The translations under genes were made by a program, and so were the position numbers. This document shows, piece by piece, positions 3,246-16,942 of a DNA stretch of 23,571 bases; position 1 is the first letter of the stretch; each line of letters starts with the position of its first letter. This DNA comes from a virus, in the IMG/VR virus record IMGVR_UViG_3300017971_000771, positions 1 through 23,571 of that record; one strand, written 5' to 3'. The notes under the pieces are model-generated. The model worked only from the letters and a program-made list of their open reading frames with translations, had not been told where the DNA came from and ran no database searches.

Positions 3246-3857
3246 TTATTCGATGGGTTCAAGGGTTTCTGGATCTACCTCGACACCGTCAAACTCTTCC
3301 TTTACCATCTCGACGGTATAGCCAAGCTTCTCCAGCTGATCCAAAACAAACTGCTTGTACTCCTTCTCGACCACTGCCTGGCTACCCTTCCAGTAGGTGT
3401 AGTACCTGGCAGCAACCTTGAAGAGGGTAGGATCTCCCTGAGCTGTCTGGCCAATCAACGGGGCACTAAGTGAGTGCCCGGCCAACTCAGTGAGGGAGTA
3501 GAGGTATCTGCAAAAGTTCTTGTAGTTGAACTTGTTCTTTCTCAACCAAGCACGGATTTCATCGATCTTCTTCCGCCCGTCAGGCTTTTCGTCCTGGAGG
3601 GAGCCACCTACAGTTACATCACCCTTGGTGACGGGATCAAATAAGTCGATGCCACCGACATGTTCGCTAGACGTGTCGTTTTTTTCGGATTTTGTGGACT
3701 CACCTGGTTTATTTTCTGGCTCACTTGATGACTCTGACTCAGCTTGTGGCTCATTTTCTGAACCGGGTGATCCAACAACCGTTCCCTCGGGAAAAGTGAG
3801 ATCTAGAGCAATCTCGATAATCACCTTGTTTCCCTCAATTCTCACAGCATGTGCCAT
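3246..3857 (-). CDS. Hypothetical protein with acidic Ser/Glu linker
   Basis: 203 residues from ATG at 3857 (AAGGAG 7 bases upstream; the ATG at 3875 has no site). A short beta-rich N-terminus (MAHAVRIEGNKVIIEIALDL), a low-complexity linker rich in Ser, Glu and Pro (about 30-70), and a helical C-terminal domain with many aromatics (RYLYSLTEL, KVAARYYTYW). The last residues are again acidic. Not recognised. It lies directly downstream of the Cas4/RecB-like nuclease with 49 bases between, so a role with that nuclease in recombination is possible by position only. Confidence 0.75.
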   Translation of the reverse strand: MAHAVRIEGNKVIIEIALDLTFPEGTVVGSPGSENEPQAESESSSEPENKPGESTKSEKNDTSSEHVGGIDLFDPVTKGDVTVGGSLQDEKPDGRKKIDEIRAWLRKNKFNYKNFCRYLYSLTELAGHSLSAPLIGQTAQGDPTLFKVAARYYTYWKGSQAVVEKEYKQFVLDQLEKLGYTVEMVKEEFDGVEVDPETLEPIE

Positions 3858-3906
3858 ACGATAACTCCTTCTCATGTGTTAAGTTTTGTGATACTGAGAA
3901 TAAAAT

Positions 3907-4839
3907 TTAAGCTGCCTTTGAGAAATGTTTCTTGGGTAAGATCCCCTTGTTTTTCTCCATCTCTTTACAGTAGAACCTTACCGGGCAATAGTCATCTGAT
4001 TGACACCTACGCCCTTCCCAGGTTTCGAATTTAGTACAGATTCTGGGCATCCCAGTTTCGAAAGCATGGTCACAGTCTGCCTGTAGTTGCGAGTAGAAAT
4101 CCAAGACTCCCTTGTCCGGCAGCCTCTTGACTGGTATGAGATAGGTATTCTTCTCGATGCCCCTGCTTGTAGCTATGTAGGTATTACCGTCCCTGGCTAT
4201 CGCATAAACGTTCATACGTGATATTGGGAACCCGTGTTTCTCCACGACGATCCTATATCTGTTGAGCTGAAGTTCGGTATCATACATCTCGGGAGGCTTC
4301 ATCCCAGGCTTTAGTGGGTATTTGATTTGGCCCTTCCTCTTTCCTGACCTGTACGTGACAGGCCCACCATCCTTATCGGTAATGGGATTGTCTTTGTCTT
4401 CATCGATCCCGAGAGCTTTGGCGCACTTAAAGCTGCCCCATGTCTTATAGTCATATAAGAGGTAGAAGCCAAGTTCCTCCTCGTCTGGCTCCAGTAAGTC
4501 CGGAATACCCTTGATCAGGTCGTCTGAAAAACCCTCCTCACTAACAAAGCCCCTTACTAAACGGTGTATACTTAATTTATCGTGAGTGCCGACACCAACG
4601 GAGATCCAGGCCATCCCATCTGGAGAGATTGCATAGTCACATTTCTGTTTGAGAAATGTGACACGAGGGCCAGTCCCGGCCTGTGAAGGTGTAACGGCCT
4701 TCCAGGGCCTTTGGTTAGCACACATCCTCAGGTAGGGCATAGTGGCGCATCTGTGATTCATCCTGCAACCACGCACCGATAGACATCTACCGATCTCAAT
4801 CTTTTCCTCGTCTGGACAAATAAACCACCTGGCTGGCAT
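3907..4839 (-). CDS. Cas4/RecB-like PD-(D/E)XK nuclease with Cys cluster
   Basis: 310 residues. Likely an exonuclease acting in phage recombination or DNA processing. Visible motifs: GIPDLL (D114), the DxK pair in LLYDYKTW (D130, K132), a QLNRY motif (Q191) typical of Cas4/RecB nucleases, and four C-terminal cysteines (C268, C279, C285, C291) that resemble the Fe-S site of Cas4. An extra N-terminal region with five cysteines is unusual. The start at 4839 has GAGGAGG 4 bases upstream; an in-frame ATG at 4893 has no ribosome site and would be nearly leaderless relative to the promoter at 4903-4931, so I prefer 4839 (alternative: 328 residues). First gene of the leftward operon, under the putative repressor operator. 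Confidence 0.82.
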   Translation of the reverse strand: MPARWFICPDEEKIEIGRCLSVRGCRMNHRCATMPYLRMCANQRPWKAVTPSQAGTGPRVTFLKQKCDYAISPDGMAWISVGVGTHDKLSIHRLVRGFVSEEGFSDDLIKGIPDLLEPDEEELGFYLLYDYKTWGSFKCAKALGIDEDKDNPITDKDGGPVTYRSGKRKGQIKYPLKPGMKPPEMYDTELQLNRYRIVVEKHGFPISRMNVYAIARDGNTYIATSRGIEKNTYLIPVKRLPDKGVLDFYSQLQADCDHAFETGMPRICTKFETWEGRRCQSDDYCPVRFYCKEMEKNKGILPKKHFSKAA

Positions 4840-4902
4840 TATACCTCCTCGGCAAAGCTTCGATCTCGTGAGATAGTTATAAATTTCCTTCATCTACTTC
4901 TT

Positions 4903-6997: not shown

Positions 6998-7475
6998 GCA
7001 CAAACTCCACACCCACCCTGCGATGGAGGTGTTGCATAAAATACCCGACGACCATGTTATTATCGATGCAGATAAGTATAGAGAAGCCAGGAAGTTCGAA
7101 GAAGAGATAATAAGTCTTGAGAAGATGGTTAACCTCCTCGAAACCAAACTGGCAATGGTCGAAGAGGAAGGGTACGAAGCTAAGCAGAAACTGTACGAGG
7201 CTAGACAGGATCTCAAATTCAAAAAATACCACATCGCATCCTTAGATCATTGGGTTGAATCTGAGCAAGATAATGTCCAGCGCTTAACAGAAGTGATAAA
7301 AAGCTATATACGGGCCCGAGTGAATGTTACCCAGTGTAGGCAGGAGCGCTTTAAGAGACTTTGTCAGTCGTGCCCTGAATATGATCGGGGGTGCCGGGTT
7401 TACTCCAACTACTTCGAGGCCTGGATAAATCTGCAAATATCGGTGCTAAAGGGGGAGGCAAATGAAAGGACTTGA
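6978..7475 (+). CDS. Coiled-coil protein with C-terminal Cys cluster
   Basis: 165 residues from ATG at 6978 (AAGGAG, 6-base spacing). Residues 35-110 are heptad-rich and charged, a coiled coil (REARKFEEEIISLEKMV and similar). The C-terminal part holds cysteines in C-x(11)-C-x2-C-x6-C order (TQCRQERFKRLCQSCPEYDRGC), a possible zinc site. Not recognised. It sits between the helicase and the acyl-carrier-like gene, with a 14-base overlap to the latter. Confidence 0.75.
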   Translation: MSDPIGRHKLHTHPAMEVLHKIPDDHVIIDADKYREARKFEEEIISLEKMVNLLETKLAMVEEEGYEAKQKLYEARQDLKFKKYHIASLDHWVESEQDNVQRLTEVIKSYIRARVNVTQCRQERFKRLCQSCPEYDRGCRVYSNYFEAWINLQISVLKGEANERT

Positions 7476-7866
7476 TAGTCACCTATTTATATGTAGAGAG
7501 GATGAAGAGGAGCTTCTTAGCGTAGAACAGCTTGTTTTAATGGTCTTGGAGTATTGCGAGCTTCTTGAGAAAGCAAACAAGCAGTGTAAGGAAAAAATAA
7601 ACACCCCAAGGAGAGTCAAGGCCCTTATAGCTCAGCAGCTCAACCTTGATATTGATCAAGTATCACTATCCTCCAGGCTTAAGACAGACCTTAACGCCGA
7701 CTCCATGGATTTAGTTGAAATTGTGTTTGCCCTGGAGGACGAATTCAATATCGAAATCTCCGACGCAGAAGTTGAGCGCATTAAGACCGTTGCCGGTTGG
7801 GTCTATGTAGTAGATCCACTCAAGAACTACACCAAAGCGCAGAAAGGAGGGAGACAGAAGTTATGA
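7462..7866 (+). CDS. Acyl-carrier-protein-like protein with N-terminal extension
   Basis: 134 residues. Residues 48-120 match the ACP fold: RVKALIAQQLNLD, then LKTDLNADSMDLVEIVFALE, then EFNIEISDAEVERIKTV. The motif ADSMD puts a phosphopantetheine-accepting serine at S81 (canonical DSL/DSM). Residues 1-47 are an extra acidic helical segment not found in standard 75-80-residue ACPs. ACPs carry acyl groups on a 4'-phosphopantetheine arm in fatty acid and related synthesis; why a replication operon carries one is unknown. The start has GGAGG 3-4 bases upstream and overlaps the previous gene by 14 bases; the stop overlaps the next start (ATGA). Confidence 0.82.
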   Translation: MKGLDSHLFICREDEEELLSVEQLVLMVLEYCELLEKANKQCKEKINTPRRVKALIAQQLNLDIDQVSLSSRLKTDLNADSMDLVEIVFALEDEFNIEISDAEVERIKTVAGWVYVVDPLKNYTKAQKGGRQKL

Positions 7867-8385: not shown

Positions 8386-9279
8386 ATGCCCGAAATAGAC
8401 CTAACAGGCGATGGTCTTGGCTGGATCAAGCTACACCGCAAGATCATGGACGGAGAGATCTGGGTTAACGAGATCCTATTTCAGATCTTTATATACTGTT
8501 GCATGAGGGCTAACCATACCAAGCAGTGGGTGACCATTACAGTAGGAAAGGGCAAGAGACAGATAATGTGCCCGAGAGGTACTTTCTTGTTTGGGAGAAA
8601 GGCAGCCTCAGAAAAGATGCCCCACATACCCCCGTCAACTATCTGGTATAACATGAAAAGACTGGAAAAGATGGGGATGGTTAACATCAAAGTTGACAGC
8701 CAATATTCCTTGGTAACAGTGATAAACTATGACGTTTACCAGGGTGAGGGTGAAAAAGTTGACAGCAAAGTTGACAGCCGTTTGACAGCCGTTGAACAGC
8801 CGTTTGACACAAGTAAGAATGATAAGACCGAAGAGAAGGAGAATAAATTAAAACTCTACACTCCTCAGTTCGAGGAGTTTTGGAAACTCTGGAAGAGTAT
8901 CGATCACCCAGGTCGTTCCGACAAACGTCGAACGTCTGAAAAATATCGATCACTAACCCTTAAGGGTATACAGCATCAGACTATCTTAAACGAGTTGGAG
9001 AGGTACATAGATGCTGAAGCACCTAAGCTGAGAGAAAGGGCCCGGCGCAGCGGCGAGTCCAAGCCTACCCAGTTTATACCTAATTGCGGGAAGTGGCTGA
9101 ATAGGTTTAATGACTGGAAGAGCGACGGGCAGGAGGCGGCAAGGGGCAAGAAGGACTACGCTGACGAACTCCTCGAACGAGGGATGATCTCAGAGGAGGA
9201 GTGGGAGGTTAGAAAGAAAGCAACGAAGGCCCCGAAGGGGATGCTTGAGCGCCCCGGAGGGGCTGGGGGAGGCTTTTAA
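8386..9279 (+). CDS. Phage replication initiator / replisome organiser
   Basis: 297 residues. The N-terminus GWIKLHRKIMDGEIW is typical of phage replication proteins of the O/DnaD-like type, followed by a winged-helix region (about 65-115, with PSTIWYNMKRLEKMGMVNI as recognition part). The middle (about 125-160) is a hydrophilic linker and the C-terminal part (EEFWKLWKSIDHPGRSDKR... PTQFIPNCGKWLN) resembles helicase-loader tails. It probably recognises the origin and loads the helicase from 5500. GAGG lies 5 bases before the ATG. Three near-copies of GTTGACAGC at 8759-8800 in the linker could be iteron-like, as in lambda O. Confidence 0.8.
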   Translation: MPEIDLTGDGLGWIKLHRKIMDGEIWVNEILFQIFIYCCMRANHTKQWVTITVGKGKRQIMCPRGTFLFGRKAASEKMPHIPPSTIWYNMKRLEKMGMVNIKVDSQYSLVTVINYDVYQGEGEKVDSKVDSRLTAVEQPFDTSKNDKTEEKENKLKLYTPQFEEFWKLWKSIDHPGRSDKRRTSEKYRSLTLKGIQHQTILNELERYIDAEAPKLRERARRSGESKPTQFIPNCGKWLNRFNDWKSDGQEAARGKKDYADELLERGMISEEEWEVRKKATKAPKGMLERPGGAGGGF

Positions 9280-9292
9280 ATAATAATTGCTT

Positions 9293-9305
9293 AGGAGGTG
9301 ATAAG
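9293..9305 (+). promoter_or_regulatory. Orphan consensus Shine-Dalgarno sequence
   Basis: AGGAGGTGATAAG is almost fully complementary to the 16S 3' end but has no start codon at useful distance (only GTG overlapping it, and a TTG that opens a 3-codon frame). The next gene starts 60 bases on with its own site. It may be a relic or a ribosome standby site. Confidence 0.45.
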
Positions 9306-9317
9306 ACCCCTTTTGAG

Positions 9318-9360
9318 TTTGTGAAAAAATCACAAAGCATAACCATCAACATTTAGGAGG
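9318..9360 (+). repeat. Leader repeat, copy 1 (before SSB)
   Basis: 43-base block starting with hairpin TTTGTGA-AAAAA-TCACAAA (9318-9336), followed by GCATAACCATCAACATTT and AGGAGG. The same block stands before the gene at 9852 with two mismatches. Position suggests an mRNA leader or operator controlling both genes together. Confidence 0.85.
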
Positions 9361-9365
9361 ATTTT

Positions 9366-9782
9366 ATGGCAAAAGCAAGGTTTAATCAGCACATCATTAT
9401 TGGAAACCTCGGGCGAGATCCTGAGATCACCTACACCCCTAGCGGCCTCGGTATTGCCAAGCTCAATGTGGCCACCAACGATGGCTATTACTCCTCTAAG
9501 AAGCAGGAGTGGGTAGATCGCACCACGTGGCACAACTGTGAGATGATGGCCAAGAAGGACATCGAGAGTGTTGGGGGGCTCCGGAAGGGAGACAGTGTTC
9601 TTATCATTGGTAGCAAGAACACTGACAGCTGGGAAGGTCGTGACGGCCAGCGTCAGTACCGGGATAAGATCAAGATCTCAGTCGTCGCCAAGGTTATTAG
9701 CATTGATGATCTTGAGAAGGAAACCCCTCGCAATCCGGCACCCGACTATGGCAGCGGGCCCGATGACGATATTCCTTTCTAG
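9366..9782 (+). CDS. ssb: Single-stranded DNA-binding protein
   Basis: 138 residues. OB-fold SSB with typical sequence features: FNQHIIIGNLGRDPEI at the start, a central WVDRTTWHNCEMMAK (TxW motif), GDSVLIIGS, and an acidic tail ending DDDIPF, the conserved tip that recruits replication partners. It coats single-stranded DNA at phage forks, with the helicase at 5500 and initiator at 8386. AGGAGG lies 7 bases before the ATG, at the end of a 43-base leader repeat that recurs before the next gene. Confidence 0.96.
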   Translation: MAKARFNQHIIIGNLGRDPEITYTPSGLGIAKLNVATNDGYYSSKKQEWVDRTTWHNCEMMAKKDIESVGGLRKGDSVLIIGSKNTDSWEGRDGQRQYRDKIKISVVAKVISIDDLEKETPRNPAPDYGSGPDDDIPF

Positions 9783-9803
9783 GGAGTATCACAGCTGTTA
9801 ACC

Positions 9804-9846
9804 TTTGTGAAAAAATCACAAAGCATAACCATCAGCATCTAGGAGG
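9804..9846 (+). repeat. Leader repeat, copy 2 (before 9852 gene)
   Basis: Second copy of the 43-base block, with the hairpin arms TTTGTGA/TCACAAA at 9804-9822 and the AGGAGG at its end. Differences from copy 1 are A to G and T to C near the 3' side. Both copies are followed by an AT-rich 5-base spacer and ATGGC. Confidence 0.85.
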
Positions 9847-9851
9847 TATTT

Positions 9852-10115
9852 ATGGCTTGGCATCACCCAAACACCACTGAATTTCCGGAGTGGGTAGTAG
9901 ATGTGGGTAACAACCACTTCCATAAGTGCCTCACTATTGTGCAGCGGATGAATCCAACCCCCGAAAACCTAACGGTGATTAGGGGGTTGATTGACTCCCT
10001 AGAGTATGAGTACCTCGACAAGAGGCGCATCCTCGACGTTCAAGAGGGAATCGGATCTGATAGCACAGCAGTGAAAAAGGCACTGGAGAAGAGAGATGCA
10101 GAAGAACGAGGATAG
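9852..10115 (+). CDS. Small hypothetical protein sharing the SSB leader
   Basis: 87 residues (MAWHHPNTTEFPEWVVDVGNN at the start), mostly helical, with an acidic/basic C-terminus. AGGAGG at 5-6 bases. It has the same 43-base leader as ssb, so it is probably expressed with it, which hints at a replication-related role. The last 20 bases overlap the next gene. No family recognised. Confidence 0.8.
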   Translation: MAWHHPNTTEFPEWVVDVGNNHFHKCLTIVQRMNPTPENLTVIRGLIDSLEYEYLDKRRILDVQEGIGSDSTAVKKALEKRDAEERG

Positions 10116-10479
10116 GAGATTCCACAACGGAGAACAAGCACTAACCTTCTGGTTTGAGTTTAGTAAGCTAGTTGATGAATTCGGTATGCCATCACTGGCC
10201 CTAAATGATGAAGTAGTTATAGGTAACTTGCCGCGATCTTGGGATTATCCCGACTGGTGGTACGATTGGGTGAGTATAGATAAGGCCTTCGGTAACATTG
10301 GTGATGCTGACCTTGGAATCATCAACGACTTCTTCAAGCAGGGGTTTCAATACTCCAAGCAGGGCATGTCACAGTGGCGCTACAAGAGGAAGTGGCAAGG
10401 CGTAACACAAAGAGCTTTCAGACTCGTACCTGAGGGTATGAAGTCCAAGGAGAAAAAACGATGGAGAAAAATGAAGTAG
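10096..10479 (+). CDS. Hypothetical protein, possibly a sigma-like or ArpU-type regulator
   Basis: 127 residues. Contains aromatic motifs FWFEFSKLVDEFGMPS and SWDYPDWWYDWVSIDKAFG followed by a helical segment (NDFFKQGFQYSKQGMSQW) and a basic tail (KSKEKKRWRKMK). The order 'FWFE...MPS...Yd..W.DWl.ID.A' resembles small phage proteins with an HTH-like C-terminus that regulate late genes, but the match is weak and from memory. It overlaps both neighbours (20 and 19 bases). Confidence 0.7.
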   Translation: MQKNEDRRFHNGEQALTFWFEFSKLVDEFGMPSLALNDEVVIGNLPRSWDYPDWWYDWVSIDKAFGNIGDADLGIINDFFKQGFQYSKQGMSQWRYKRKWQGVTQRAFRLVPEGMKSKEKKRWRKMK

Positions 10480-11015
10480 AAGACACTGGAGTGATGAGAA
10501 CCTTTGGGAGTGGTGCAACCAGGGACACTGCCACCGACAAGCCTGAATTCGGTGGCTTTCTCAGCCCTATGGTTTTGAGGGCCTTCGGAGAGTACATGCA
10601 CAAGAATCGCAAGCAAGCAGACGGCAGCTTACGCGCCAGCGACAACTGGAAGAAGGGCATCCCCCGGAGGGTTTATATTGAGAGCTTGTTGCGCCATGTA
10701 GTAGATGTTTGGGGCTACATAACAGGTGACGACAGCCGAGACATAACATACGATGAAGTCCTCGATGCTCTTTTGGCAGTAATCTTCAACGCCCAAGGAC
10801 TGGCAAGAGAGATCATAATTGGAAGGGACACGGGTAGCCCACCAGTAGAGATTGGGGTTCCACCCCTCTCCGATGAGATCCAGAGGGCAGAGAAAATCAA
10901 GGAAGACCTTTTCAGTCAGATTTTTCCTGATATATGTGACAGGTACTCTCCTCGTGAGGGGTGCGATAATTGTGAGATTGAACCACTGACCCCAGGTGAT
11001 GACGTAGCGGAATAG
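10461..11015 (+). CDS. dATP/dGTP diphosphohydrolase-like protein
   Basis: 184 residues. MRTFGSGATRDT, then FGGFLSPMVLRAFGEYMHKN and the DNWKKGIPRRVYIESLLRHVVDVWG block are the signature of the phage family annotated as dATP/dGTP diphosphohydrolase N-terminal domain (MazG-related all-alpha fold). Members are thought to act on purine dNTPs in some phages, and related enzymes (MazZ) support Z-DNA phages; no PurZ or DatZ partner is in this window. A Cys motif (CDRYSPREGCDNCE) lies near the C-terminus. AAGGAG lies 8 bases before the ATG. Last gene of the rightward operon. Confidence 0.82.
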   Translation: MEKNEVEDTGVMRTFGSGATRDTATDKPEFGGFLSPMVLRAFGEYMHKNRKQADGSLRASDNWKKGIPRRVYIESLLRHVVDVWGYITGDDSRDITYDEVLDALLAVIFNAQGLAREIIIGRDTGSPPVEIGVPPLSDEIQRAEKIKEDLFSQIFPDICDRYSPREGCDNCEIEPLTPGDDVAE

Positions 11016-11033
11016 ATCGAATCGTGTGATAAC

Positions 11034-11129
11034 TGCTTCTTTGTTGTATAGTATGTCCACGTTTCATGGACACACTATGATTTCAATTGATATTACCCCA
11101 TTTAGACCATACATTATCCTGTAGAAGCA
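11034..11129. repeat. Nested inverted repeats between convergent operons
   Basis: A 12-bp stem with one mismatch, ATAGTaTGTCCA (11048-11059) and TGGACAcACTAT (11067-11078), loop cgtttca, lies inside an outer pair TGCTTCT (11034-11040) / AGAAGCA (11123-11129). No T-run follows the stem. This 145-base stretch holds no credible gene. Confidence 0.6.
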
Positions 11130-11160
11130 AGTATGCCTCGTTAACGTAAAAACCCAAAAC

Positions 11161-11204
11161 AAAAAAAAGAGCCCAGAGGGTTTTATCCCTCCGGGCTTTT
11201 TCCT
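11161..11204. terminator. Bidirectional terminator
   Basis: An eight-A run, then AGCCC-ag-AGGG, loop ttttat, CCCT-cc-GGGCT and TTTTTCCTTTT. Two 4-5-bp GC stems around a small internal loop, with a T tract on either strand. It separates the rightward replication operon (ends 11015) from the leftward AAA+/VWA operon (ends 11206). Confidence 0.85.
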
Positions 11205-11205
11205 T

Positions 11206-11289
11206 TTAGCCGTAGATTAGTAACAGGGGCAGGGCGACGGCCATAAACCCCAGCCAAAACCAGATCCAACCTTTTGTGCTTATGCTCAT
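11206..11289 (-). CDS. 27-aa membrane peptide
   Basis: ATG at 11289 with AGGAGG 5 bases upstream, overlapping the preceding stop (ATGA). MSISTKGW is followed by IWFWLGFMAVALPLLLIYG, one clear transmembrane segment reaching almost to the C-terminus. Last gene of the leftward operon, immediately before the terminator. Unknown function. Confidence 0.62.
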   Translation of the reverse strand: MSISTKGWIWFWLGFMAVALPLLLIYG

Positions 11290-11555
11290 GACTCCCTCCT
11301 TTCCTCACTGACATGTTTTCGTGATTCTCTCCCGTGCTCGCACCAGTCCTCATGCTGGTGCCTGTTGGCTTCGTATGACCCCTGCATTTCCACCAGGTTA
11401 CCGCATACTTCACAGTGTATAACATTTGAGAAGTAGTTGTCACAAAGAGGTTCACCGAAGTTAAGTTCTTGAAGTCCTGGGTTTTCATCAGCGAATTCAA
11501 CCATCTGCTGACATGCCTCATAGTTGTCTAGGTATTCATGATCCATCTCTTGCAT
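11286..11555 (-). CDS. Small acidic zinc-binding-like protein
   Basis: 89 residues from ATG at 11555 (AAGGAGG, 9-base spacing; a longer frame to 11594 lacks a site). An acidic helical N-terminal half (MVEFADENPGLQELNFG) and a Cys/His region (VIHCEVCGNL...HQHEDWCEHG) that could hold one zinc. Not recognised. Overlaps the 27-codon membrane gene by 4 bases. Confidence 0.75.
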   Translation of the reverse strand: MQEMDHEYLDNYEACQQMVEFADENPGLQELNFGEPLCDNYFSNVIHCEVCGNLVEMQGSYEANRHQHEDWCEHGRESRKHVSEERRES

Positions 11556-11556
11556 T

Positions 11557-11628
11557 TTATTCAGCCTCCTTCCATTCACAGACTCGATAAACATCCTCGG
11601 AATGGAGCCAGATCACTGACCCCATCAT
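11557..11628 (-). CDS. Possible 23-aa peptide
   Basis: A frame MMGSVIWLHSEDVYRVCEW... ends just before the start of the next gene; a GTG at 11667 could extend it to 36 residues. No good ribosome site is visible. The amphipathic IWLHSEDVYRV looks protein-like, but the evidence is thin; the stretch could equally be the leader of the 11555 gene. Confidence 0.28.
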   Translation of the reverse strand: MMGSVIWLHSEDVYRVCEWKEAE

Positions 11629-11651
11629 GAGGGGGCACACGCCCCACTCTG

Positions 11652-11858
11652 TTACAGCCTTTCCCACTTAATACAGTGGGTTTTTACAGCCGTGTTTCCG
11701 ATTTCAACGGCGTCGATCACCTCAACTTCATCCCTGCACTTGTCAAGCGCATTAAGGACAGCCCGTTCAGGACAGGGATCGCTGGAGACGAACTCCATCT
11801 TTATCCTTTCGCCTTCTGTTTCAAAGATGACCCTTACGCTATAGATTGCTTCCACCAC
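11652..11858 (-). CDS. Small alpha/beta hypothetical protein
   Basis: 68 residues from a GTG at 11858 with GAGGAGG 7 bases upstream. Alternating beta strand and helix (AIYSVRVIFETEGERIKMEF, PERAVLNALDKC, EVIDAVEIGNTAVKTHCI) suggest a small beta-alpha-beta fold. Directly downstream of the VWA gene with a GC hairpin between. No family recognised. Confidence 0.75.
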   Translation of the reverse strand: MVEAIYSVRVIFETEGERIKMEFVSSDPCPERAVLNALDKCRDEVEVIDAVEIGNTAVKTHCIKWERL

Positions 11859-11872
11859 AATTAGACCTCCTC

Positions 11873-11890
11873 GGGGCCCTTTCGGGCCCC
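11873..11890 (-). repeat. Intercistronic GC hairpin
   Basis: On the minus strand GGGGCCC-GAAA-GGGCCCC, a 7-bp stem closed by a GAAA (GNRA) tetraloop, 7 bases after the VWA stop and directly before the GAGGAGG of the next gene. One of four such junction hairpins in this operon. Confidence 0.8.
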
Positions 11891-11897
11891 TTCCATC

Positions 11898-13532
11898 TTA
11901 GTATTCATCGTAGTAAGCCACCTCACCAAATGGTGGCTCGAACTGTTTATACCGGGGGAACCTGGTAATCAACCAGAGGGTTTCAAAGTCCGGTTCCCCT
12001 GGGAATGTTGAGCATTCACCGTCAGTCATATAGATGACGCCCACCGGGGGATCGTAGTCCATATTTTCCTCGATCCACTGGTATCCCGGCCTGAAGCAGG
12101 TACCTCCACCCTCGAAGGGAAAACCACCCTCCGGTAGATCCTGAAGTGACTCAAACTCCTCAATGTGGTTCACCTGGGTATTTACGCACATTATGGTGAC
12201 CTTGAAGTCTCCGAACTGTTGCAGGATGTTTTTGGTTTCCGATACCAGGATCTTCTGATCCCTGGTGCCCATAGACCCAGACTCGTCAAAGATGATCACA
12301 AAGTGGCCCATGGCTGTAGCCTCTAGGGATGGGAGGAAGAAGCCACTATGGGAGTATCTGGGGTTTGGCCTCATAAAGTTGTAATCAGAGGCCATCTTAT
12401 CCACGAACCACCTGGCAAGTACTTCTCTCCAAGGAAGTCTGGGATTGGCATGGGCGTCCATCAGAGATCTGGCAAAACCAGGCTCTTTACCCTCTGAACT
12501 TGAGGAGATCTGATAAGCCTGTCTTTGAATCTGCTTCCATCTCTCGGCTTCCTGATCCATCTCTTGCTCGGTGGCCTCTCTGGCCTCACCTGTTTCAGGA
12601 TCTTTGCCCTGGAAGTCCCTTACTTCTCCCCACTTGGAGGGATGCGGTTTTTCATATTGTCCAGCATCTTCTCCGTCTCCTTGCCCATCTCCATTGACTT
12701 GTGAAGTATCCGGTGGCTGTTTTGGCTCTCCTCCAGGGCTTGAACCCCCTTCAGTAGGTCCGTTATCAGTGTTTCCTGGCCTTCCACCTTGTCCTCCAGG
12801 TTCTCCAGGGCTCCCCATACCTGATGAAGTCTCCCCGTCTCCCTCTCCAGCTTCTCCACCCTCTCCAGCATCTGTATCAGACCCTTCTCCGCTTCCACTC
12901 TCGCCTTCTTCAGCTTCTTCACTTCCTCCACCAGACTGCCCATCTTCATTGTTAGCTGGGGGATCTGAATTACTCTGTTCACCATTTCCGTCAGAGCCTT
13001 TTCCATCGTCTCTCTGTCCATATTCTTCACCTCCTTCATTGGTTTGCTCTGACTCACCAGAAGTATTTTCAGAGTCATTGTCAGCCTCTGAAGGATCAGG
13101 TGAGTCTTGTTGTTGATCTTGCTTGTCTTGCTTCTGGCGCTCATCTAGCAGGATCTCATAAACCTGCTCGACTGACATATCCTCAAAGCGCCCATCAACG
13201 AGAACACCGTCAATTAGTTTAAACCCAGCCTTCTGCAGCCAGAGGTTTATGACATAGTCTCCAGCCTCGTTGTAGAGCTGGTGATCCTTGTCACCCCTTC
13301 TCACATGATGCAGAAAGCCGCCATGGCCGGGGATCTCATGGACTATAAGGAACTTCAATTCATCAAGGTCACAAGCATCGATGAATCGAGGGTTATACCC
13401 CATGGTCACACCGTCAAACCAGGCTGTTTCGCATGCCGGGTCTTCGGCGAACTCAGCTCTCAGTACTTGTAATGCAAAGTAATGGTGAGAGCTAATGAGC
13501 CCACCCACTGCTTCTTTCAGCTTTGAGTGCAT
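11898..13532 (-). CDS. Putative metallopeptidase-VWA protein (CobT-like partner of MoxR)
   Basis: 544 residues. The N-terminal domain (1-130) resembles the putative metallopeptidase domain of the DUF2201/COG3864 type: LKFLIVHEIPGHGGFLHHV (H65, E66, H70, H75, H76) and YNEAGDYVIN (N88, D92). The zinc motif reads HExxxH, one residue longer than HExxH. Residues 131-300 are a very acidic Gly/Ser/Glu/Gln linker. The C-terminal domain (about 405-544) is a VWA fold with MIDAS residues DESGS (416-420), T478 and D504. AAGGAGG precedes the ATG. In MoxR-VWA systems the VWA protein delivers substrates to the AAA+ ring; the target here is unknown. The linker gives false frames on both strands. Confidence 0.88.
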   Translation of the reverse strand: MHSKLKEAVGGLISSHHYFALQVLRAEFAEDPACETAWFDGVTMGYNPRFIDACDLDELKFLIVHEIPGHGGFLHHVRRGDKDHQLYNEAGDYVINLWLQKAGFKLIDGVLVDGRFEDMSVEQVYEILLDERQKQDKQDQQQDSPDPSEADNDSENTSGESEQTNEGGEEYGQRDDGKGSDGNGEQSNSDPPANNEDGQSGGGSEEAEEGESGSGEGSDTDAGEGGEAGEGDGETSSGMGSPGEPGGQGGRPGNTDNGPTEGGSSPGGEPKQPPDTSQVNGDGQGDGEDAGQYEKPHPSKWGEVRDFQGKDPETGEAREATEQEMDQEAERWKQIQRQAYQISSSSEGKEPGFARSLMDAHANPRLPWREVLARWFVDKMASDYNFMRPNPRYSHSGFFLPSLEATAMGHFVIIFDESGSMGTRDQKILVSETKNILQQFGDFKVTIMCVNTQVNHIEEFESLQDLPEGGFPFEGGGTCFRPGYQWIEENMDYDPPVGVIYMTDGECSTFPGEPDFETLWLITRFPRYKQFEPPFGEVAYYDEY

Positions 13533-13557
13533 AACTAACTCCTCCTTTTTGTTGGTG

Positions 13558-13618
13558 TTTTAAGCCTCTCTAAGAATGCCCTCGTAAGTCGGTGAGGGCA
13601 TCGAACAAAGGCCTAAAA
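13558..13618 (-). repeat. Two-tier intercistronic inverted repeat
   Basis: Inner arms ATGCCCTC (13576-13583) and GAGGGCAT (13594-13601); outer arms TTTTAAGCCT (13558-13567) and AGGCCTAAAA (13609-13618) with one mismatch. The outer arm includes the stop codon of the 13613 gene. Confidence 0.75.
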
Positions 13619-14494
13619 AAGTCCTTTCATCTTTTCTAGGATCTCGTCAGCTTCATCCTTGGCCTTTTTCCGGTAAACATGATCCTCTCGAAGCATGGCA
13701 GGATCAGCTGTTGCCAGCTTGTCGTAGATCTCCTTGCCCACCTGCTCTAAGTCCGGATCTCCGGTAATGTTCAGTAGTGGGAGGATCTCACAAAGCTCTG
13801 CTATGTTCCCGGTGAGGGTATCTCTGAAGATCTTCTTGTCGTCATCCGGGCCAAAATTGATCCTCTCAGCCATATGGGAGACTACTTTGTAAAGTCTTTC
13901 CCATGCAGCCCTGATACCCTGGTGGATTAGATCTTTCTCCCGTTCTGAGGCTGCAACTGCAAGCTCCTGGAGCTTTTCCTTGGGAAGGTTGACTCTCCAG
14001 TCCTTACTATCTGCCAGGTTACCGTAGTGGATCTTGAATCTGTACTTAGCTCTCAGTTCTGATGGGGTAGGGTAGTCTGACTCATCAAAACTACTTCCCA
14101 TACGTTCAGATCCATTCTGATAAAGCGCATCGAAGAAAATCTCATACCGCTCTATCATGTAATCTACATCCTTCCAGAACTTCCGTTCCAGCTCGCCCAT
14201 CTTGGTCTGGAAGATCTCAATCTGATCAGCTCTTACCAGGCCTACACCGTTTGCAGTCCAGGGTACCGAAAGCCGATCCCTCAGCTGATAAGCCTCCAGA
14301 CGTGCTTTGATGGGCCCGTCAATAATGTCCTTGGGGATGATGAATTTGTTCACCCGCACGGCATCATCAGCGCAACCTATGCTATCGATTAGCGACTGGG
14401 TTTCCTTTTTTCCAAGCTTCCGGCCTGAGTAGCAGGTGCTTTCTACCTGTACCGTCATTGCCATTGATCTTAGATCACCTTTGATTTTTTTCAT
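13613..14494 (-). CDS. DUF3150-like protein of the MoxR-VWA module
   Basis: 293 residues, mostly alpha-helical. The N-terminus (VQVESTCYSGRKLGKKE), the VNKFIIPKDII segment and the PWTANGVGLVRADQIEIFQTKM block follow the layout of phage DUF3150 proteins, commonly found between CobS-like AAA+ and CobT-like VWA genes. The middle is a long helical region (ERKFWKDVDYMIERYEIFFDAL) and the C-terminus is charged. Function unknown; the invariant position suggests a scaffold or substrate adaptor. AAGGAGG lies 5 bases before the ATG. The family is recalled, not searched. Confidence 0.78.
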   Translation of the reverse strand: MKKIKGDLRSMAMTVQVESTCYSGRKLGKKETQSLIDSIGCADDAVRVNKFIIPKDIIDGPIKARLEAYQLRDRLSVPWTANGVGLVRADQIEIFQTKMGELERKFWKDVDYMIERYEIFFDALYQNGSERMGSSFDESDYPTPSELRAKYRFKIHYGNLADSKDWRVNLPKEKLQELAVAASEREKDLIHQGIRAAWERLYKVVSHMAERINFGPDDDKKIFRDTLTGNIAELCEILPLLNITGDPDLEQVGKEIYDKLATADPAMLREDHVYRKKAKDEADEILEKMKGLF

Positions 14495-14528
14495 GTCTTC
14501 CTCCTTTATCCTCTTGTTTTTGTTAAGC

Positions 14529-14597
14529 TAAACCATCCTAGAAGCGCTCACAAAATATATCATTAGATATACTCTGGGAGCGCCGAAGCATGGTTTA
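14529..14597 (-). repeat. Three-tier intercistronic inverted repeat
   Basis: Three concentric arm pairs: TAAACCAT/ATGGTTTA (14529-14536, 14590-14597), GCGCTC/GAGCGC (14544-14549, 14578-14583) and TATATC/GATATA (14556-14561, 14566-14571) around loop atta, with internal loops of 6-7 bases. The outer arm holds the stop codon of the ATPase gene. Confidence 0.82.
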
Positions 14598-15638
14598 ATT
14601 CTGCAGCTCTGGGTTTTCGGTGGCCCACTGGATATAGGCCTCGGTGAATTGAAGCTTCTTGTCTCGCCGGGTGGCAGAGGTCACCAGAAGCTTCTCGAAC
14701 TCCTGACCTAAGCGTTTGGAATACTGCATGATCGAAGACCAATTTTCACCATTTGCCAGCTCTGCTAGTGCCAATGTTAGTGCAAAGTGAATGTCAACCT
14801 CATCGGGCACGGGAGCTGTATCTGGCGACCGGATGCAGATCCGTGGATCTATCATCCTGTTTGCTATCGATTTGAATGCCATAAAGTCCTGGGCAAACTC
14901 AGCTCCAGCGGCGCCTTCGATCACTGTGCCAAGGATCTCGTCTTCATCCTGCCAGTCGTGGGCCCACTTTGAGACGTTCGCCACCGTTCTAGGGCTGGGA
15001 GTGTTTACCATGTCCCTAGAAGCGTTTGGCTTGAAGAGCATCTCTGGCTTCCTCATGATGTAGGCCCTTACTAGATAGTGGATGCTGTTTTTTTCTGCCC
15101 ACTCGTTCCATCCAAGAGGATCAGGTACCAGCTCAACGATGGTATCGAAGCGGCTCTTTACGGGTTCTAGGATGCTTTGAACTCCTGCTAGGTCTTCCTT
15201 TCTGTTAGTAGCAGCAACAAACCGGACAACTTCAGCTATCCTTTGGTTGTTAACTTCCCGGCCAAGCAAGAGCTGCATGGCTGCTGCCTGAACAGCTGCA
15301 GTGGCTTGGCCAAGGTCATCAAAGAAGACCACGGTCAACACGTTCGCATCGATCATCTTTTTAAGGTAGCCGAACGGTAGGAATCGAGCTTCACCATTTA
15401 CCAGTGCTGGAAAACCCTTGAAGTCAGTGGGATCTGATACCACTGGGTGCAGGATGATCAGGTTAATTTCTTTGCCGGACTCCCGGATCAGCTCAACGGC
15501 CCTTTTTACCAGATCTGTTTTACCTATCCCCGGAGCGCCAGAGATCAAAACTTGCCTACCCTTGATGATTGCCTTCACTAGGATCTTGATCAGAGTTTTT
15601 GGCCTCACCTGGGGCGCTGATTTTACTTCCTTTTTCAT
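14595..15638 (-). CDS. MoxR/CobS-type AAA+ ATPase
   Basis: 347 residues. Walker A SGAPGIGKT (33-41), Walker B VVFFDDLGQA (102-111), sensor 1 AATNR (141-145) and a following arginine-rich segment (LEPVKSRFDTIVEL) mark a MoxR-family AAA+ ATPase of the CobS/NirQ kind. These form hexameric rings that remodel client proteins with a VWA partner, which here is encoded two genes downstream. AAGGAGG lies 5 bases before the ATG. The client is unknown. Confidence 0.92.
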   Translation of the reverse strand: MKKEVKSAPQVRPKTLIKILVKAIIKGRQVLISGAPGIGKTDLVKRAVELIRESGKEINLIILHPVVSDPTDFKGFPALVNGEARFLPFGYLKKMIDANVLTVVFFDDLGQATAAVQAAAMQLLLGREVNNQRIAEVVRFVAATNRKEDLAGVQSILEPVKSRFDTIVELVPDPLGWNEWAEKNSIHYLVRAYIMRKPEMLFKPNASRDMVNTPSPRTVANVSKWAHDWQDEDEILGTVIEGAAGAEFAQDFMAFKSIANRMIDPRICIRSPDTAPVPDEVDIHFALTLALAELANGENWSSIMQYSKRLGQEFEKLLVTSATRRDKKLQFTEAYIQWATENPELQN

Positions 15639-15688
15639 TGTCTCCTCCTTATGATAAGTAGTTTTCCTAACTTATTTCCAACCACCTA

Positions 15689-15705
15689 CCAGGCCTTCAG
15701 CCTGG
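15689..15705 (-). repeat. Intercistronic hairpin upstream of the AAA+ gene
   Basis: CCAGGC, loop cttca, GCCTGG, between the stop of the 15897 gene and the ATPase ribosome site. Further pairing (AACC/GGTT) could extend to the stop codon, mirroring the two downstream junctions, but the outer arms are weak. Confidence 0.55.
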
Positions 15706-15717
15706 CGCATAGCGGGT

Positions 15718-15897
15718 TTAAGCCATATTTAGCCGCTTTTTGTGGCGATCTATTATGGATCTTCTTTTCTGATCAAGCTCTTCCATCTTTTCGATGTAGT
15801 TTTGCTTAACCATGCGCCTTTGCAGCTCTATGGCATCATACTCTTCCCGCTCTGCTTCGCTCATGTCATCCCGGATTATTTGTTCTAGTGATCTCAT
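15718..15897 (-). CDS. Small coiled-coil protein, first gene of the AAA+/VWA operon
   Basis: 59 residues from ATG at 15897 (GAGGAG upstream) to TAA at 15718. MRSLEQIIRDDMSEAEREE is followed by a charged helix (IELQRRMVKQNYIEKMEELDQKRRS) with heptad character and a basic end. Likely a single long helix or coiled coil. It leads the operon and could be an adaptor or regulator of the ATPase; that is position-based inference. Confidence 0.68.
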   Translation of the reverse strand: MRSLEQIIRDDMSEAEREEYDAIELQRRMVKQNYIEKMEELDQKRRSIIDRHKKRLNMA

Positions 15898-16084
15898 GAC
15901 TTACTCCTCTGGCTGTTAGTTGGGTTAAAGGCCTAGCAGATGATTGGATGGAAGGAGAGGAAAAGGAGTTAGCGGAAGGTTTCAGAGGTGCGAAGGTTTT
16001 CTACGCCTAGCATTCTCCTCGTTTAGTGCTTCCTACCTGTTGACTCTGATCAGTTCAGCATCCCCTAATCCGTCTGCAGCCAAG

Positions 16085-16250
16085 CTCAAAACCGGGAGGC
16101 AGTCTTTTCGGGTGTTTTAGCCACTAGAATCAAAGCTGGTGAGCGTCCTGGCCTACGGGCAAAGGCCATTCTCCCGTTGCGCTCCGTGCTCTTATATAAG
16201 GTAGAGCGCTTTCTGTTCACTGAACCACCAGGTACACAATGCACCCGGCG
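16085..16250 (-). ncRNA. Candidate structured RNA
   Basis: Read on the minus strand from an extended -10 (TGCTATATA, 16257-16265): hairpin CCGGGTGCA/TGTACCTGG (9 bp, loop 16237-16239), GTTC/GAAC with 3-base loop, GCGCTC/GAGCGC (16179-16209) around CTTATATAAG, GGCCT/AGGCC (16150-16167) and a long-range CGGGAG/CTCCCG pairing (16171-16176 with 16093-16098). No terminator was found. Each helix is short; the claim rests on their number. Confidence 0.35.
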
Positions 16251-16256
16251 CCATCC

Positions 16257-16265
16257 TATATAGCA
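16257..16265 (-). promoter_or_regulatory. Possible leftward extended -10 promoter
   Basis: TGC-TATATA on the minus strand fits an extended -10, with no good -35 upstream. It would drive the structured-RNA region and perhaps the AAA+/VWA operon beginning at 15897. Confidence 0.4.
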
Positions 16266-16325
16266 AGTGTTATGCCACATTTGTGATATTCGCCGTTTTT
16301 GACTCAACCATGCTAATCTACGGCT

Positions 16326-16472
16326 TGACAAAAAATATCAAAACACCTAAAAAAGTCTGGATTTGTGACAATAATTGTCAACAAATGACAAAAGATGTCA
16401 CCTCGGATCACCGCGAAAGTGACAAAAAAGTGACACTGTGTGGTATAATTAAGGTAGGATGAGAAATTGACA
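16326..16472. promoter_or_regulatory. Array of TGACA/TGTCA boxes, probable operator region
   Basis: Eight boxes: TGACA at 16326, 16366, 16386, 16420, 16431, 16468 and TGTCA at 16376 and 16396. Two form 15-bp inverted repeats with 5-base spacing (16366-16380 and 16386-16400), starting exactly 20 bp apart. They overlap the promoter at 16444, as expected for a multi-site regulator, and differ from the TATCAC operator. Confidence 0.65.
16441..16449 (+). promoter_or_regulatory. Rightward extended -10 promoter
   Basis: TGG-TATAAT (extended -10, consensus hexamer at 16444-16449) with a weak -35-like GTGACA 19 bases upstream. It lies within the TGACA box array and points to the rightward small-gene operon, with a leader of over 300 bases. 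Confidence 0.55.
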
Positions 16473-16480
16473 ACAGGGAA

Positions 16481-16497
16481 GGCGCCGCCAGGGCGCC
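16481..16497 (+). terminator. GGCGCC hairpin followed by a short T-rich tail
   Basis: GGCGCC, loop gccag, GGCGCC, then CCCTTTGTTTG. The weak tail allows a terminator or attenuator for transcripts from 16444. The arms equal those at 2338-2353. Confidence 0.4.
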
Positions 16498-16677
16498 CCC
16501 TTTGTTTGTACCTAGTGAGAGTGTGGGTACTCGCACGAGTTCCCCAAAACCCCAAATCCCCAAGGATCTTGCACTGTTATAAATGGTGCAGAAGCTCACA
16601 CACACGTGGGAAATACTTATTGTAATGGTGGAGTCGTAGGATAAATGGTTCTAACAGGCCCCCCTACCCTCCCCCAC

Positions 16678-16705
16678 TTGACCCATCCAACCACCCATAT
16701 ATAAA
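16678..16705 (+). promoter_or_regulatory. Rightward promoter of the small-gene operon
   Basis: TTGACC (16678-16683), 16 bases, TATAAA (16700-16705), about 80 bases before the first ATG of the operon (16784). No operator palindrome is visible in the spacer. Confidence 0.5.
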
Positions 16706-16783
16706 AAGAGAGGTTCCCCTGTGTAGACTTGGAGCCTCATTTTTGACTTTAGGGAACCCATATCCTAGGCGTAGGAGTCCCAA

Positions 16784-16942
16784 ATGGCGCCGAAATTCTG
16801 CGAAAATTGTTTAGATTCAGGCCGGAAAAGGGATGCAGAATTTGTGTGTCCCCACTGTAGAACTTATTTTTGCCATGAATGTAGGGATAGACTTGAGGGC
16901 GTCTGTGATGTTTGCCCTCCCCCACTAGTAAGATTCACATAG
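16784..16942 (+). CDS. 52-aa protein with double zinc-finger pattern
   Basis: ATG at 16784 with AGGAG upstream. Four CxxC-type pairs are seen: C6/C9, C22/C25 (CPHC), C30/C33 (CHEC) and C41/C44 (CDVC), enough for two interleaved zinc sites, a RING- or B-box-like cross-brace by spacing. Cross-brace zinc fingers usually mediate protein contacts. No family recognised. First gene of the rightward small-gene operon. Confidence 0.75.
   Translation: MAPKFCENCLDSGRKRDAEFVCPHCRTYFCHECRDRLEGVCDVCPPPLVRFT

Follow-up and report, generated by a model that had tools for sequence, protein, structure and literature searches.

What does a virus do with a MoxR/CobS-like AAA+ ATPase, a DUF3150 protein and a metallopeptidase-like protein bearing a VWA domain, all encoded by neighbouring genes? 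The question is raised by IMG/VR record IMGVR_UViG_3300017971_000771, a 23.6-kb virus fragment of which positions 1 to 23,571 were analysed (hereafter, the window), and which also encodes an integrase, a DnaB helicase, a DnaD-like loader and an SSB protein. We found that the three genes (hereafter, the triad) represent a MoxR-VWA machine with DUF3150 as an added, near-obligate part, and that they are spread over an unexpectedly wide range of phages and conjugative elements. In our judgment there is about an even chance that the triad is a three-part, ATP-driven remodeller which acts early, while the mobile element is in its DNA phase, either on a DNA-processing complex or on an opposing host factor.

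Components of the triad

The three open reading frames (ORFs) lie next to each other on the minus strand, and each ATG is directly preceded by an AAGGAGG ribosome site, as a sequence-only reading of this DNA had pointed out. The same reading named a MoxR/CobS-type ATPase, which was borne out by our profile searches: the protein scores 29.4 bits against Pfam AAA_5 (cut-off 22) and matches phrog_1297 at 1.5e-58. It carries the Walker A motif GAPGIGKT, the Walker B motif VVFFDDLGQ, an ATN sensor 1 and an SRF arginine-finger region. Among its relatives the DDLG of Walker B is present in 95/95 and the Walker A pattern in 89/95. The bpMoxR model stays under its cut-off (16.5 bits vs. 27), and no CobS or CobT model is among the NCBIfam matches up to E 0.1. 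Phage and cellular copies are intermixed in the ATPase tree, whose well-supported branches force at least seven switches between the two, as counted by a quick method.

As for the VWA protein, its N-terminal domain belongs to DUF2201_N (PF13203/PF09967 pair; 4.7e-35, 122 bits vs. a cut-off of 23.2) and its C-terminal domain to the DUF2201 VWA family (1.5e-11, 44.9 bits vs. 26.4); the latter part also matches solved VWA domains, and the whole protein matches phrog_1314 at 2.7e-86. The PHROG label of this family, 'HNH endonuclease', was rejected as the domains are those of DUF2201; the label recurs in many GenBank phage records. The metal ion-dependent adhesion site (MIDAS) of the VWA domain is retained throughout the family, with D416, S418 and S420 of the DxSxS motif found in 98/98 members, T478 in 96/98 and D504 in 97/98. 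The zinc motif behaves otherwise. It is canonical (HExxHxxxxH) in 84/98 members and altered in 12/87 tree rows through at least ten changes, and the window's version, HEIPGHGGFLH, is one residue longer than the motif of an active metallopeptidase. The earlier naming of a metallopeptidase with a VWA domain stands for both domains, the longer zinc motif being the one detail that differs. The inserted glycine of HEIPGH corresponds to a gap in 97/98 alignment rows, and a degenerate search for the motif in another virus returned one unrelated protein only, so that the insertion is known from a single sequence. With the MIDAS invariant and the zinc motif repeatedly broken, the conserved chemistry of the system is that of ATP and the MIDAS; proteolysis by the zincin-like domain looks dispensable, and the window's protein has probably lost peptidase activity. 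One and the same N-terminal domain aligns across the 98 members, i.e., there is no swapping of effectors.

The middle protein is divergent. It has no Pfam match of its own, DUF3150 (PF11348) included, but 12/19 sequences of its orthologue alignment match Pfam DUF3150 (best 2.8e-9), which supports its earlier description as DUF3150-like. Its predicted structure is mostly helical (predicted local distance difference test, pLDDT, 94.5; predicted template modelling score, pTM, 0.87) and matches the fold of an annotated DUF3150 phage protein with a template modelling (TM) score of 0.85. In fold searches the model meets mainly DUF3150-type viral models; the PDB holds no significant structural counterpart (best E 0.31), and a sequence search of the PDB yielded nothing convincing. 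Because the window's DUF3150 is so divergent, a single-sequence search against viral contigs and GenBank phages found no homologue, and homologues were reached via the ATPase instead. The protein lacks many residues kept in more than 80% of its relatives (W22, D28, G46, R69, R85, P159), which indicates that this copy evolves fast. No VMAP or STAND match was seen in this third protein in a Pfam-level search. Among the isolated phages of the phage collection, only the 65,014-bp Planktothrix/Synechococcus phages (locus L174, positions 8643-13100) were found to carry a DUF3150 of this type.

Linkage of the three genes

That the three genes form a coherent system co-occurring in relatives, as previously suggested, was confirmed by a survey of gene neighbourhoods, in which genes were called mechanically and many contigs are metagenomic. 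Around the ATPase, in 67 non-redundant and well-flanked loci, a VWA gene lies within 7 kb in 67/67, a DUF3150 gene in 64/67 and all three in 64/67. Seeding with DUF3150 instead, both partners were found in 25/25 loci with at least 3.5 kb on each side and in 39/42 loci overall; in the remaining 3/42 only the ATPase is missing within the available flank. Such co-occurrence of three families is far beyond chance. The Pfam DUF3150 model is too narrow for whole-genome searches, for which we used our own DUF3150 alignment. The 64 triads follow three gene orders, AAA-DUF3150-VWA (49), AAA-VWA-DUF3150 (8) and DUF3150-AAA-VWA (7), so that linkage is not the mere inheritance of one arrangement; reshuffling of order without loss of genes argues for one functional unit. 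Given its near-obligate presence, DUF3150 is most likely part of the machine, where it may serve as an adaptor or scaffold. In bacteria the triad is rare: counting the seed genomes, it was detected in 3/250 genomes of one Burkholderia-containing order and in 2/247 genomes of the phylum to which Chitinophaga belongs, where one of the two matches is weak.

Carriage by phages and conjugative elements

The two nearest relatives of the window (ATPase 51 and 49% identical) are records of 54.9 and 47.6 kb, each with a terminase large subunit, by which token the window clade is one of tailed phages. The set is thus truly phage-borne, as had been claimed, yet not phage-specific, since the same triad is carried by conjugative plasmids and transposons, which form no virions. 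On Burkholderiaceae plasmids it is positioned between a PRTRC cassette (ParB, ThiF, proteins A, B, C, E, F) and type IV secretion system genes, or adjoins the cassette; in two such plasmids (L175, 4301-20203; L176, 5216-20140) it follows a few kb downstream of the cassette (ParB, E, C, F, B, A, ThiF). Rhodovastum plasmids have it near ParB and toprim genes, and a Simplicispira conjugative plasmid together with genes for a PD-(D/E)XK nuclease, RecT and SSB. In Chitinophaga, in turn, it comes after CTnDOT-type TraG, TraJ and TraM genes, with a ParB-like gene downstream.

A further, remote form was found on plasmids of IncC, IncP-7 and related types, close to, next to or inside gene blocks for SSB, RecT/Bet and lambda exonuclease. 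The IncP-7 plasmid pCAR1 carries AAA, DUF3150 and VWA genes in one block, which corresponds to the published ORF100-103, strongly transcribed and conserved in R478, Rts1, SXT and R391 (PMC2642839). A tblastn search with the pCAR1 DUF3150 matched 1118 plasmid records, 969 of them conjugative. In IncC plasmids the genes run AAA, unknown, ssb, bet, exo, DUF3150, VWA, and IncC-type triads are present on E. coli plasmids. Eight additional plasmids have AAA and DUF3150 genes that adjoin or flank an exonuclease gene; RecT/Bet is annotated in 5/8 and SSB in 4/8, and one of the eight is without an annotated VWA neighbour. Profile alignment supports homology between window-type and IncC-type DUF3150 (hhalign probability 95.7, E 8.5e-9) and between the ATPases of the two forms (E 4.8e-6). 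Their VWA proteins are alignable over the VWA domain alone (E 1.8e-4), an N-terminal HExxH being common to both as well. Judged from these profiles, the IncC-type triad is remote kin of the window-type triad and not a close orthologue.

Neighbouring genes and timing in phages

In one phage group, the helicase, DnaB, primase and initiator genes run in the same direction as the triad in 59/59 instances, while terminase, portal and head genes run opposite to it in 42/43; these counts come from 17 non-redundant loci of related phages and amount to one or a few independent observations. Co-direction with replication genes, taken together with virion-less carriers, points to the DNA phase rather than to virion assembly. 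One phage group often has a DNA helicase gene of phrog_62 type near the triad, mostly downstream of the VWA gene (L104, 13848-15218, and 22 further viral loci). Whether window-type triads are generally linked with recombination genes was also tested; such a link holds for a minority only and is not claimed for the family as a whole. The recombination link is firm only in the IncC-type plasmids.

Proposed role and its alternatives

The view in the literature is that MoxR/VWA systems activate dedicated complexes in a chaperone-like manner (PMC3893208). Along these lines, the products of the triad would make up one three-part machine, in which the MoxR/CobS-like ATPase forms a ring and cooperates with the VWA protein. 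The Mg-bound MIDAS would hold on to an acidic residue, either of the client or in DUF3150; the latter would most likely be an adaptor or scaffold, and ATP hydrolysis would pull the client apart or reshape it. The zincin-like domain would be secondary; it may bind or clip the client, with its peptidase activity dispensable. Such a machine would act in the DNA phase, i.e., during replication, recombination or establishment in the host, and would target either the nucleoprotein complex by which the element processes its DNA or an opposing host factor; it would have no role in virion assembly or cobalt insertion. Observed are the parts, their linkage and neighbours, the invariant MIDAS, the decaying zinc motif and the virion-less carriers; the ring, the MIDAS ligand, the class of client and early timing in the window's phage are inferred.

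Several observations weigh against the remodeller that we propose. The operon of the window clade stands by itself and faces replication genes as well as virion genes, an arrangement that does not indicate its timing. In a crude search, a single-strand annealing protein (SSAP) or exonuclease gene was near only 3/63 viral and 5/26 genomic window-type loci. The alignments with the IncC-type form are weak outside the N-terminal half of DUF3150 and the P-loop region. Finally, published deletions across the corresponding region of SXT, compared at the level of the region, lowered transfer at most 10-fold, except for s063 (PMC2791158); with effects this small, a strong role in transfer seems unlikely.

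Of the alternatives, virion assembly or maturation has a published basis. The ATPase-VWA chaperone would build structural proteins, or trim them via the peptidase domain, as proposed for the homologous pair without DUF3150 in jumbo phages of group 2.2, where the analogy was drawn from Acidianus two-tailed virus (ATV; PMC7824862), of which p618 interacts with p892, tied to tail growth (PMC3893208). For the triad we consider this quite unlikely, as it resides on virion-less conjugative plasmids and transposons, is transcribed in one phage group with replication genes and against head genes, and has repeatedly lost the zinc motif; the virion protein that the sequence-only reading mentioned as a client found no support. 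A host protein, named there as well, or a DNA-processing complex may be the client. Very improbable is the role of a cobalt-chelatase helper, in which viral CobS/CobT-like proteins use the host's CobN and so raise cobalamin and nucleotide synthesis. This was published for CobST pairs of tailed viruses (PMC8651126), and the ATPase and VWA protein of the triad are of the same general kind. Yet, beside the lack of CobS/CobT matches noted above, CobST is without DUF3150, and the IncC-type triad is kept on E. coli plasmids while an E. coli control genome has no CobN-family match. A CobN-type gene, reported earlier as missing nearby, was found neither in the window nor in 16 related virus records (0/17; the records are possibly fragmentary, and CobN might come from the host). 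DUF3150 and the virion-less plasmids thus make both the virion-chaperone and the vitamin B12 explanations unlikely for the triad.

Two other alternatives concern conflict and defence. In a MoxR-VWA conflict system the third protein would sense an invader and free the VWA-linked peptidase, and mobile elements would use it against competitors. The three-part layout (MoxR, VWA with peptidase, third protein) is that of iSTAND/VMAP systems (PMC7159879; PMC12839542), and the triad is patchy and mobile. We nevertheless regard this as unlikely: the peptidase domain is constant, unlike swapped conflict effectors, and often catalytically broken, the third protein gave no VMAP or STAND match, PADLOC yielded a single weak match (mads_8, to the ATPase), and the genes have a backbone location in conjugative elements. 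Doubtful, too, is a narrow counter-defence function, by which the machine would extract or degrade one host defence or nuclease complex during establishment. It suits phages and plasmids alike, and the plasmid linkage to ssb, RecT/Bet, exonuclease and DNA methyltransferase genes is typical of entry-phase functions. On the other hand, a text search of a survey of plasmid leading-region anti-defence genes did not find the triad named.

A broader version of the remodeller in the DNA phase may also be put forward, though it seems rather unlikely at present. The triad could be a general establishment machine of mobile DNA that has been exchanged between tailed phages and three or more kinds of conjugative elements. 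On newly entered DNA it would take apart a nucleoprotein or defence complex of the host, or load and clear filaments of SSB or annealing proteins. If true, this would be a protein-remodelling step in DNA invasion not yet described, with a DUF3150 fold not represented in the PDB. Regardless of the version, uncharacterised backbone genes of widespread plasmids are now linked to phage genes, and the client can be sought in laboratory plasmids.

Other features of the window

The coordinates of the triad and of the features around it are collected in Table 1. The strong terminator suggests that the triad and two small ORFs form one operon with a common transcript. Upstream of the triad, between divergent units, about 1.2 kb (15640-16900) are gene-poor and contain several TGACA-like motifs; this is possibly a regulatory or origin region. 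Elsewhere, an acyl carrier protein-like gene (7462-7866, +; PP-binding E 2e-11, phrog_5934) is located within the replication region. A gene for a pentapeptide-repeat protein (1292-1906, -; 204 aa, E 4.1e-35) adjoins the integrase gene; DNA mimicry is possible for proteins of this kind. At 3246-4893 (-), the gene for a possible nuclease of PD-(D/E)XK type (weak match, E 0.0019) precedes that for a 209-aa protein which belongs to no family; the two could be an exonuclease/annealing pair.

Table 1. Features of the triad operon in the window
Feature	Position	Strand	Basis or remark
MoxR/CobS-like AAA+ ATPase, 347 aa	14595..15638	-	AAA_5 over cut-off; phrog_1297
DUF3150 protein, 293 aa, near-obligate third component	13613..14494	-	Orthologue and profile homology; mostly helical predicted fold
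Metallopeptidase-like domain, disordered acidic/Gly-rich linker and VWA domain, 544 aa	11898..13532	-	DUF2201_N, DUF2201, phrog_1314
N-terminal zincin-like DUF2201_N domain, residues 3-190	12963..13526	-	Pfam; confident fold to about residue 145
Zinc motif HEIPGH, altered from HExxH by one inserted residue	13323..13340	-	Alignment
Disordered linker, residues 157-282	12687..13064	-	pLDDT <50
VWA domain with intact MIDAS (DxSxS, T, D), residues 412-539	11916..12299	-	Pfam and alignment
Small ORF, 68 aa	11652..11858	-	Probably in triad operon; no Pfam match
Small ORF, 102 aa	11286..11594	-	Probably last gene of the operon; no Pfam match over cut-off
Strong intrinsic terminator, 11-bp stem and T8 tail	11170..11197	-	Ends triad transcript
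Weak sigma-70-like promoter candidate	15651..15680	-	Upstream of ATPase gene; 9/12; as a class no better than shuffled sequence

Comparison with known systems

The triad resembles pCAR1 ORF100-103 and its IncC, IncH, IncT, SXT and R391 relatives (PMC2642839), which have AAA, DUF3150 and HExxH plus VWA in one block, with homologous DUF3150. They differ by remote sequence, a longer VWA protein without DUF2201 similarity and a frequent tie to ssb-RecT/Bet-exonuclease genes. Host systems such as RavA-ViaA, NorQ-NorD and CbbQ-CbbO consist of two parts, have known clients and are not known to bear a metallopeptidase domain. What they have in common with the triad is a MoxR ATPase with a VWA partner; they activate a client complex in an ATP-driven manner (PMC3893208). 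The MoxR-vWA ternary conflict systems (PMC7159879) are likewise built of three parts with VWA fused to a peptidase-like domain; yet the third part of the triad is DUF3150 and not VMAP/iSTAND, and its effectors are not swapped. CobS-CobT and viral CobST (PMC8651126) also combine an AAA+ ATPase with a MIDAS-bearing VWA protein, whereas the triad has no CobS/CobT model match or CobN and possesses DUF3150 and DUF2201 domains.

Among phages, the MoxR and metallopeptidase-vWA pair of jumbo phages (Iyer et al. 2021, PMC7824862) has the same kind of ATPase and the same domain order in the VWA protein, and homologous families are present in Bacillus phage G and Atu_ph07. No DUF3150 was detected beside that pair, and its published role in virion assembly misfits the presence of the triad on plasmids. 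N4-like phages (Schitoviridae) are among the matches of both the ATPase and the VWA protein; gp24 (ATPase) and gp25 (VWA) of G7C match the respective profiles and are encoded between RNA polymerase and dCTP deaminase genes, but DUF3150 is absent, and the gp25 family is the one mislabelled 'HNH endonuclease'. The ATPase/VWA pair of jumbo phages and the CobS/CobT-like pairs of tailed viruses were already known, and what is added here is DUF3150 and the plasmid range of the system.

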